Shown: in pieces, positions 26,978-34,557 of the stretch
Numbering within the stretch: the first letter of the stretch is position 1
How the letters are laid out: every line of letters begins with the position of its first letter
Source of the DNA: Thelephora terrestris
Lineage: Eukaryota > Basidiomycota > Agaricomycetes > Thelephorales > Thelephoraceae
Reading direction: 5' to 3'
Length of the DNA stretch: 64,000 bases
NCBI GenBank assembly: GCA_015956445.1
Contig: WIUZ02000002.1
Span: 1,364,001 to 1,428,000 of the forward strand
Notes under the pieces: model-generated
The model's input: only the letters and a program-made list of their open reading frames with translations
Told to the model about the DNA's origin: nothing
Databases searched by the model: none
Made by a program: the position numbers and the translations under genes

Positions 26978-28377
26978 TCAAAACACATCACGGGAATACG
27001 TCGCCCTAATCGAGAACAAGCTCTTGAACACGGTACCTAGCACGCCCGATTCTCTCGCAGTCCTCTCAACGGACTTCCGCTTTGCCCTCTTCGTCTGCGA
27101 CGGTTGCGGGACTGGGTGATTGATCGGAGTGGGGACTTCCGTTTGGGTCGGGCTGGGAGGAGGGATGGAAGTGTACGAGTCCACGAAGATGTCGTCCTGT
27201 GATCCGTTTTTGAAGTTGTACAGGTCCAAGTAGAAGGGCGGAGAGTATGTCCCCTCGAACATCTAACGCGGCCGGACGGTATGAACGAGGGAATCAGTCT
27301 CAGTGAGGCGCCAGATGACCCGATCGAGCGTGCACACGTACGTTGTTTCGCTCTTTCTGGAACCAGTAGAAGGGCTGTTTCGCGCCGTAGGTGCAGTTCC
27401 CAGGGGTGGCTTCCATGACACCTCTCTGAGGATCTGCTCCACACCGACGGGGTACCTGCGCAGGCGCTAAAGCGACGTTCGAGACCGAGCCAGTGATGTT
27501 GCACCTAAATCCATTCATGTAGTCTGTTCAAAAAGTGAGGAGGAGAGCGACCGTCAGCGGAAAGCAGGCGTAAGGTAAAAGAATTCATCACTTTGTTCAC
27601 CGCCGCTGTCCTCAGAGTGGATCCAGAACCAGGCGCAGATGCAACCTCCTTCGGGGCAAGGAGGCATCCTCGCGGGGACTTGAAAATCGGTCTGCTCGTA
27701 CCAAACGCACGTGTGGTTCACGCTAAAGACGGTGAAGTTTTCCGGTTGCACTTTGTTTACGTCGGATTCGTATGTGATCGCCAGTGCGCATCCCTTCAAG
27801 TCCTCCAAACCCTGTCCGTCGTGGACCGTCCAATAAAAAAATCAGAATTTCACATGCGATGGGGGAGATGGGTGAAAAAAGCGAGGGATCTCTCACGTTT
27901 GCTGTCACGGAAGAGGACTGTAAGCGCTCTGGGGTGAGCATAGGAGAGCGTTCCTACTCACTGTGAAACTGCGAAATCGGGGATCCCGGACAAGGGTAAT
28001 TATCCTTTCCGAAGCAAAGATCTCCATCTGCAGACGAGCAATACGAGGTAGCACCTTTATTACAAGCCAGTTCCGCGGTCGCAGGTTTTCCAGCAGGCAG
28101 GTCGAAGAAATCCCCGGGATTTGGAGGGTAACCGAGGTGGCCGTGGAACCACCACTGCTCAAAGGTGTAATCTGCGAGGGGTGCTACCGGTCGGTTATCG
28201 TATGGGAAGGTGTCGAAGGAGACGTTGTATCCCCACATGGCGGGGGTGAATATCGCTGCGGAGACGATGAGAAGGATGAGGGGCTGATTCGCTTTTGTGG
28301 ACGATCGTTTGGGACTCACAGATATGTGCGTTCACGGGTGCGATTAGCCAGAGCAATAAGGGGATCGTCGTGAACAT
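26978..28377 (-). CDS. AA14-like lytic polysaccharide monooxygenase, gene 1
   Basis: Six exons (28377-28320, 28255-27962, 27901-27897, 27811-27592, 27523-27342, 27262-26978; 1044 nt) give 347 residues. A signal peptide ([17 protein letters not shown]) is predicted to be cut so that the mature protein starts with His, the N-terminal ligand of the LPMO copper histidine brace. Family hallmarks as I recall them are [81 protein letters not shown] and ERNN. AA14 enzymes are secreted and act on xylan coating cellulose. The third exon is only 5 nt. The tail is Pro/Thr-rich, then basic ([14 protein letters not shown]), with no carbohydrate-binding module or GPI signal seen. Confidence 0.85.
27897..27901 (-). 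other. 5-nt internal exon of AA14 gene 1
   Basis: CAAAC lies between ...GTGACAG and GTGAGAG. Joining CAC-A, CAAAC and GGTTTG gives H-T-N-G-L-E-D and restores the AA14 frame. The equivalent 5-nt exon of gene 2 is 33165-33169. Confidence 0.7.
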
Positions 28378-32574: not shown

Positions 32575-34557
32575 ATGCGGAACCTGCTCTTCGCCGCTAT
32601 CGTCGCCTCAGTCCCCCTCGCTAGGGCTCACATTGGTAGCGTGACCTTTGAGTCTCAGGCTTGGATTTGTCCTCACCCCACGTCAAGCTTTCTATGACCC
32701 TTCCATGTGGGGGTATAATGTTACCATGCAAACTTTTTCCTACGATAACAGGCCGATGGCCCCCCTTCAGCAGTACACTTTCGACCAATGGTGGTTCGTA
32801 AGTGGACATCGTTTCCTCACGTCGCGCTAGGCAGTAACAACTATCCCCGCGATCAGCACGGACACTTGGGTTACCCCCCTAACGCTGGCGACTTCTTCGA
32901 GCTTCCAGCTGGAGGCGTCGCCAACTCCCAATTGGCCTGCAACAAGGGAGCCACCAAGTGGTGGGCTACATCTGAAGGAACCACTGATATTCGTCAAGGA
33001 GAATATCCTTGCCCTGGTTATCCGACCTCCCAGTTCCACGTGAGTTCTCTGTCCACTTTGATGACAAGGCTCAGGCTGATCTCATTGATGTAACAGAGTA
33101 CGTTTCCTGCTGTATCTTATTTCTATTTGTTCGGATTGACTTGAATTCCCTCCGCCTTCTTTAGCTACCGTGAGTCCGCGTGACTTGTACTGTGAGGGCT
33201 ATCCGCTAACTCTTTTCCTTTTAGGGCATCGATGACGTGAAGGGCTGCGCCCTTTCCATTGCGTACACCTCAGACGTGAACAGCATCCAGCCCCAGGATT
33301 TGGCCGTCTTCAGCGTCAACCAACAATGTGTGTGGAACGTCGACACCGGCTTCCAGATCCCCAAGGACATGCCACCTTGCCCCGACGGCGGATGTATCTG
33401 TGCTTGGCATTGGATCCATTCCGTGGACAGCGGCTCTGCGCAGAGTCAGTTGATTCTTGTGATGCGGGTGAACCATCTCTGATCCCGTTTGCAGTGTTCA
33501 TGAACGGCTTCCGATGCCAGGTCACTGGTTCGACTGCCAATACTCCTATCGGGACACCACAGGTCCCCAAGAGGTACGGTTGTGTTCTCGAGTCTTTGTG
33601 AAATGTGCTCATTTGTTCAGGTGCACGAATGACCCTTCCCAGTGCTATACGGGTCCCCAACAGCCGTTGTATTGGTACCAGGCTGAGGGTAACAACGTGC
33701 GTGCGCCGGGATCACTAAGTGGACGAGAACGCTGAGGATTTTTTGCAGATCTTCACCGGCCAATACGATCCACCCCACTATCTCGAGTACGTCGCGCATC
33801 TTTGAAAAATTCTATCCCTTTTTTGATGTCGGTTTTCAGTGAGTGGGGTTTCTTCGATGGCGCTCAGAATGGAATTTTCGGCAACGGTGGCAACAGCAGC
33901 CCTTCAAGTAGCAGTTCCAGCCCAAGTTCCAGCTCCAGTTCAAGCCCTACTTCGACCCCCACGCCTGCTACTCCCGCTGATAACCAGCCCCCCACTTCCC
34001 CGACGCCAACGCCAACGCCCAGTAGCCCTTCCAACGGCAACAATCTGTCTGGCAACACCCCACCTCAGATCAATAACCTGCCTCAAGGCAACGGAGGAAA
34101 CGGCGGTGATCCTTCCTCCTCCTCGTCCTCATCGGTCCCTCCCCAGTCCTCTCCTCCGCCCTCGCCCCCGGCGAATAACAACAACAATGACCCTGCTCCT
34201 TCGCCCTCGCCCTCTCCATCGCCGTCCTCGCCTCCACCTGACAACTCGGTGAACAATCCTCCTCCGTCGTGAGTACCCCTTTTCGACCCTGGAGCTTTCA
34301 TCTCACCATCTTTGACAGTAACCCGCAAGGTAACGGAAATAGCGACTCGGAGATCAACCCTGCGAACAATCAACCTCCCTCGCCATCGGGGTGGGTTTCT
34401 TGTTGATTATTTTTACTTGTGAGATTACTGAGCTATTCGTGCTTCCAGAACGCCGCGTTGTAAGCCCAGGAATGGAAATGGAAGCAAGAAGCGTCAAATG
34501 GTTGCTTCCCGGCATTTCAGGAACAAGCGTCACCACGCCCGTGATCATCACCACTAG
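32575..34557 (+). CDS. AA14-like lytic polysaccharide monooxygenase, gene 2, with long Ser/Pro-rich tail
   Basis: Twelve exons: 32575-32635, 32688-32797, 32857-33039, 33097, 33165-33169, 33225-33444, 33495-33573, 33621-33696, 33749-33786, 33840-34268, 34319-34390 and 34449-34557. Together they are 1383 nt (460 residues). The signal peptide ends ARA, then His-Ile-Ala, so the mature N-terminus is the copper-binding His. AA14 hallmarks are [85 protein letters not shown] and FMNGFRC. After the domain come about 150 residues of Ser/Pro/Thr/Asn linker, then a basic His-rich end ([12 protein letters not shown]). No binding module is seen; the tail may tether the enzyme to the wall or polymers. It needs a 1-nt and a 5-nt exon. 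Confidence 0.87.
33097..33097 (+). other. Candidate 1-nt exon of AA14 gene 2
   Basis: A single A sits in ...TAACAG-A-GTACGT. It is bounded by introns of 57 nt (33040-33096) and 67 nt (33098-33164), both normal sizes here. CAC + A + CTACC + GGC reads H-T-T-G, as AA14 proteins require; without the A the rest is out of frame. Confidence 0.65.
33165..33169 (+). other. 5-nt internal exon of AA14 gene 2
   Basis: CTACC lies between TTCTTTAG and GTGAGTCC. It is homologous in position to the 5-nt exon CAAAC of AA14 gene 1. Confidence 0.7.

Follow-up and report, generated by a model that had tools for sequence, protein, structure and literature searches.

One-nucleotide exons are already known from APC11 and VPS55 of plants and from CYP621A of Fusarium. 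The exon of Arabidopsis APC11 is described as a constitutive A between AG and GT that annotation had got wrong; it lies in an intron interval of 422 nt and was shown by cDNA and GFP fusions, according to that report (PMC4674806). For plant VPS55, the published account gives a 1-nt exon in one paralogue clade that is absent from another, widely conserved in land plants and confirmed by RNA-seq and RT-PCR (PMC8831610). The single-nucleotide exon of Fusarium CYP621A, presented by its authors as the first fungal case, is a G in the middle of a Gly codon of an ascomycete gene, for which 18 reads are given (PMC12940212). Another kind of close neighborhood of introns is found in fungal stwintrons (spliceosomal twin introns), described as two introns that share one interval and are removed in consecutive reactions, one intron splitting a splice element of the other with nothing exonic between them.

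Mitochondrial one-nucleotide exons are reportedly on record as well (PMC5436844, PMC12308204), and microexons are reportedly mentioned in basidiomycete papers (among them PMC1184071 and PMC9142197). Searching a library of open-access papers, we found no earlier 1-nt exon from a basidiomycete or from an AA14 gene.

Here, we analyzed an AA14 LPMO gene of the basidiomycete Thelephora terrestris, located in a 64,000-nucleotide stretch of DNA (the window) that is part of a contig of 3,455,736 bases (C12) in a genome of 40.6 Mb. In this gene, the single A at position 33097 is very probably a constitutive coding exon, as judged from splice sites, reading frames, family conservation and paralogue structures. 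In contrast to CYP621A, the base is an A and the first base of its codon, the exon adjoins a 5-nt micro-exon, and the case is predicted from the DNA. With APC11 it would share the A between AG and GT, the constitutive inclusion and the faulty annotation, and with VPS55 the presence of the exon in one paralogue and its absence from another; both of these are plant cases. The original prediction of this exon had named plant APC11 as the precedent; VPS55 and CYP621A stand beside it. We rejected an identity as a stwintron, since both introns have a complete donor and acceptor of their own and one base is kept between them. The pair of a 1-nt and a 5-nt exon is the feature particular to this locus. 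If confirmed, this case would add to the nuclear genes known to contain a 1-nt exon, as the first from a basidiomycete among the open-access papers searched.

Gene structure and assignment to the AA14 family

The gene is encoded on the plus strand at 32575-34557, spans 1983 bases and comprises twelve exons and eleven introns in our model, with 460 codons followed by TAG. Placing the start of exon 7 at 33495, we obtained 1383 nt for the twelve exons together, without internal stops. The encoded protein matched PDB entry 5no7 (E 7.5e-103) and the Pfam family PF22810 (406.5 bits at a cut-off of 27, E 1.6e-121).

Exon 3 (32857..33039) ends with the codon CAC (33037-33039) for His118, which is His100 of the mature protein and aligned to residue 99 of 5no7. 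Immediately 3′ of this CAC begins the donor of a 57-nt intron (33040-33096, GTGAGT...CTGAT...TAACAG), followed by the single A (33097) as first base of the Thr codon ACT and a 67-nt intron (33098-33164, GTACGT...TTGAC...CTTTAG). Next follow the 5-nt micro-exon CTACC (33165-33169), a 55-nt intron (33170-33224, GTGAGT...CTAAC...TTTTAG) and exon 6 (33225..33444), whose first codons GGC ATC GAT GAC read GIDD. The introns on both sides of the A contain branch-point-like motifs, CTGAT in the 57-nt and TTGAC in the 67-nt intron. Across the junction, the twelve-exon translation is FHTTGIDDVKG, compared with YHTTGIDDVKG in the solved PcAA14B, and 5no7 reads HTTGIDDVKG. The original prediction had given this order of CAC, 57 nt, A, 67 nt and CTACC, the sum of 1383 nt and an HTTGIDDVK as in AA14 proteins, all of which we recovered unchanged. 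A search of the genome for extra copies of the 401 nt around the site, which skips very common words, returned only the self-match.

In AA14 enzymes, the N-terminal His and a second His belong to the copper site, together with a Tyr (Y192 in TrAA14A) that is reported as conserved across all proteins compared in that study (PMC10885436). In our alignment, the column of His19 (mature position 1) has H in 114 of 121 rows and that of His118 in 121 of 121, among the matches listed. From the alignment, we take the second copper His to be number 99 of PcAA14B; the copper-site Tyr of this protein (5no7) is Tyr176. The latter position is occupied by Phe195 (mature Phe177) in the T. terrestris protein and not by Tyr; among the matches listed, 115 of the 121 aligned rows have Tyr in this column and the other 6 have Phe. 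The Phe is also found in P0002 and P0007, and Tyr in P0005 of T. ganbajun. We filed the gene as AA14 despite the Tyr-to-Phe change because the family profile matched and both His are present.

Splice sites and reading frames

To score splice sites we used a model trained on 72 predicted (unproven) introns. Ten chaperonin loci supplied 55 of them and the window's plus strand the other 17, with the AA14 gene itself contributing none; training was run at intron penalties of -6, -8 and -10, and the scores from -8 are given. By this model, the base at 33097 lies between a usable acceptor (43rd percentile) and a usable donor (22nd percentile). The donor of the 57-nt intron was at the 32nd and the acceptor of the 67-nt intron at the 61st percentile, and for the 55-nt intron the percentiles are 22nd (donor) and 99th (acceptor). 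Compared with the other sites of the twelve-exon model, the A exon has a donor that outscores 7 of the 10 other donors of the gene and an acceptor that is outscored by 8 of the 10 other acceptors. The latter counts against the exon, as does the base 5′ of the second donor, an A where G is commoner. Without intron penalty, the three-intron parse scored 28.3 and the single 185-nt intron 11.1, which we did not take as proof because such sums favor more introns. Intron length was not used as an argument either, because 13 of 98 introns were ≥120 nt in a permissive run with a limit of 250 nt (with a maximum of 110 nt, n = 72 and the median was 55.5); an intron of 125 or 185 nt is therefore not impossible.

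According to the original prediction, only the model with the A exon keeps the frame. This proved wrong: the two micro-exons together amount to exactly two codons, and a single 185-nt intron (33040-33224) that leaves out both is therefore also in frame, dropping T-T and yielding 458 aa. The GenBank protein BJ322DRAFT_409934 (P0001, 458 aa) corresponds to this model letter for letter. With two in-frame models of 460 and 458 aa, frame alone cannot decide.

We counted all in-frame and stop-free parses with at most three introns of ≥40 nt, taking GT or GC as donor and AG as acceptor. There were 250 such parses, six of them with all sites at or above the weakest training site, and just one in the 250 gives FHTTGIDDVKG. 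Among the six, two contain the A exon, two have an intron starting at 33017 and two pass over both micro-exons in one intron; the two with the A exon read HTTGIDDVKG and, using a later acceptor at 33242, HTTGCAL. The less specific FHxxGIDDVKG resulted from 3 of the 250 parses, and the two besides the A-exon model rely on sites that score far lower than those of the training set. A brute-force search for T-T, allowing any two exon blocks, seven border types and introns of ≥30 nt, returned one GT-AG solution, namely the A exon. As sources of T-T, AT-AC, GC-AG and other borders were rejected, as besides the GT-AG solution they gave just one, with GT-AC and GA-AG borders. These searches support the A exon as the sole solution with GT-AG introns that would restore T-T.

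The two micro-exons would be coupled by frame. Skipping the A alone leads to a first stop after 124 residues (6 codons past the His) and skipping CTACC alone to one after 121 residues (3 codons past the His), while keeping intron 1, 2 or 3 gives a first stop after 135, 133 or 141 residues. Among the combinations of the two micro-exons, the frame is kept only with both in (460 aa) or both out (458 aa, without T-T). Regulated alternative splicing, in which both-in mRNAs for HTTG and both-out mRNAs for HG would specify enzymes with differing properties, matches this restriction among the outcomes tested and overlaps with the constitutive exon; it is nevertheless improbable, as both residues are present in 5 of 5 presumed orthologue transcripts. 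We give a similarly low probability to a conserved Thelephora cassette of the 1-nt and 5-nt exons, with three introns in 185 nt, serving next to the copper ligand as an all-or-none switch, in which inclusion of both exons would lead to an HTTG enzyme, exclusion of both to an HG enzyme, and either one alone to an early stop.

Conservation of the junction in homologues, paralogues and orthologues

The choice between the 460- and the 458-aa models is, as far as protein alignments can tell, answered by homology. We examined the best 120 of 231 protein homologues and took the counts from the alignment; a plain motif pattern matched 43 of these 120. Exactly two residues stand between the His and the next aligned column in 118 of the best 120 of 231, and the first of them is Thr in 117 of these 118, therefore an A is needed as first codon base. 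The same numbers also support the single-nucleotide exon of the original prediction, this being the only GT-AG solution giving T-T. The two exceptions among the best 120 of 231 are P0001 and P0005, both Thelephora orthologue models derived from genomic DNA, and P0001 alone among the 120 has the Gly directly after the His.

This isolated position of P0001 also makes it very unlikely that both micro-exons are dead and that one 185-nt intron is removed, as in the GenBank model, leaving an enzyme of 458 aa without T-T. Such an intron would be in frame (donor 32nd, acceptor 99th percentile). However, the loss would concern two residues beside the presumed copper ligand, two donors and two acceptors of acceptable strength within the intron would have to be passed over by the spliceosome, and CTACC, still bordered by acceptable sites, recurs letter for letter in the third AA14 copy (L013:1483-1487). 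Moreover, P0036, the GenBank protein of the sister gene, keeps HTNG, for which the 5-nt exon of that gene is needed; the annotation thus coped with a 5-nt but not with a 1-nt exon. If the 1-nt exon is true, which is very probable, the GenBank protein of the T. terrestris gene lacks two residues beside the copper-binding site, an example of how annotation can silently lose active-site residues.

The genome search yielded no fewer than three AA14 copies, each of them on C12. The sister gene (26978-28377, minus strand, start codon at 28377) and the gene at 32575-34557 (plus strand) are divergent, with their start codons about 4.2 kb apart, while the third copy (near C12:324.6 kb) is about 1.07 Mb off on the same contig. 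In the sister gene, CACA|GTGAGT (H-T-N-G) is followed by a 60-nt intron, the 5-nt micro-exon CAAAC (27897..27901, minus strand) and an 85-nt intron. In the third copy, the exon end reads CATA|GTGAGT, and CTACC is enclosed by two introns of 55 nt each. The 5-nt exon is hence common to all three copies, and in both paralogues the A forms the end of the preceding exon, as had been predicted for CACA|GTGAGT of the sister gene. These two paralogues offer a natural comparison for the A exon.

In T. ganbajun, the P0005 model reads FHVSLFRTLRD (FHVSLFRTLRDGHDD) at the junction and runs into the intron. H-V can be read only if CAC or CAT directly precedes GTN, therefore the exon in T. ganbajun would end without the A. 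We infer from this that the exon-end A is absent in T. ganbajun too and that its gene may likewise have a 1-nt exon. Reading through the intron in T. terrestris gives 11 residues that resemble, by eye, the T. ganbajun P0005 reading. The GenBank models of T. terrestris P0001 and T. ganbajun P0005 both break at this junction, though not alike: two residues are missing in the former, and the intron is apparently read as coding in the latter.

Five further orthologues, P0002, P0003 and P0004 (jgi) as well as P0006 and P0007 (lgn), come from contigs of 1566, 1769, 1848, 1513 and 1368 bases, respectively. Their short contigs and unbroken frames suggest that they are spliced transcripts, and their junctions read HTN, HTN, HTT, HTN and HTT. 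In a tree of 17 rows, T. ganbajun grouped with P0003, P0004 and P0007 (100/99) and P0006 was the next to join (94/96); T. terrestris and P0002 fell outside of this group. Should a single loss of the A predate the split between T. terrestris and T. ganbajun, at least P0003, P0004, P0006 and P0007 would descend from an A-less gene, yet they keep both residues. Two independent losses of the exon-end A are possible. Searching for DNA of relatives gave nothing usable among viral contigs and 38 pattern matches in prokaryote genome contigs, none of them a relative.

Chance occurrence, proposed splicing order and possible origins of the exon

To estimate chance occurrence, we shuffled the 125-nt interval 20,000 times with dinucleotides preserved, keeping the outer sites fixed and requiring introns of ≥45 nt. 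An A exon with both sites of at least the observed quality occurred in 1 of the 20,000. With sites at the weakest training level, this number rose to 34, of which 12 also had branch-point-like motifs in both introns, and to 103 if any base was allowed. Any AGNGT was found in 1343 of the 20,000 shuffles. The window contains 463 AGNGT sites on both strands, and only 33097 reaches its own two scores, which is a rank and not an independent test.

That the A found at the exon end of both paralogues was lost here from the gene or the assembly, leaving a frameshifted pseudogene or artefact whose AGAGT in the 125-nt intron is due to chance, would suit the 519 of 20,000 shuffles with AGAGT at a usable place (site quality ignored) but is extremely improbable in view of the acceptable sites around the A (34 or 1 per 20,000 at the weakest training or the observed threshold), the otherwise open 1383-nt frame, the T. 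ganbajun exon end likewise without A, and a junction that is not a homopolymer.

Assuming a constitutive A exon, the T. terrestris mRNA is expected to carry the A. The three short introns of 57, 67 and 55 nt would be recognized singly by intron definition, therefore no exon-binding factor would be needed. Their removal would join CAC-A-CTACC-GGC to encode His-Thr-Thr-Gly beside the presumed copper-ligand His. The acceptor and the donor of a 1-nt exon overlap and could hardly be bound together, which is why we infer a stepwise removal. Once intron 1 is gone, the second donor would read ACA|GTACGT, like CACA|GTGAGT and CATA|GTGAGT of the paralogues. A sequential, intron-defined splicing without a lower limit of exon size fits the AA14 case.

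The original prediction had suggested a gain or slippage of an intron, and two origins fit the structure. In one, CAC and A became separated by a newly acquired 57-nt intron, so that the A came to stand in front of the older one. In the other, the A disappeared from the exon end and was replaced by a cryptic A exon taken up from within a longer intron, the route that Nelson and Syed propose for CYP621A (PMC12940212). We made no choice between the two since the introns are too diverged; comparing them among each other and with introns of the paralogues gave z values of -2.3 to 1.7 over 14 pairs and no usable signal of similarity.

Two further observations concern other parts of the gene. Its first donor (32636-32641, GTAGCG) scored below every training donor and is also used in the GenBank protein (HIAFYDP). 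At the other end (34449-34557), the protein terminates in a basic, His-rich tail (KKRQ...), and the orthologues P0002 and P0006 have similar C-terminal tails, preceded by a Ser/Pro-rich stretch of variable length.
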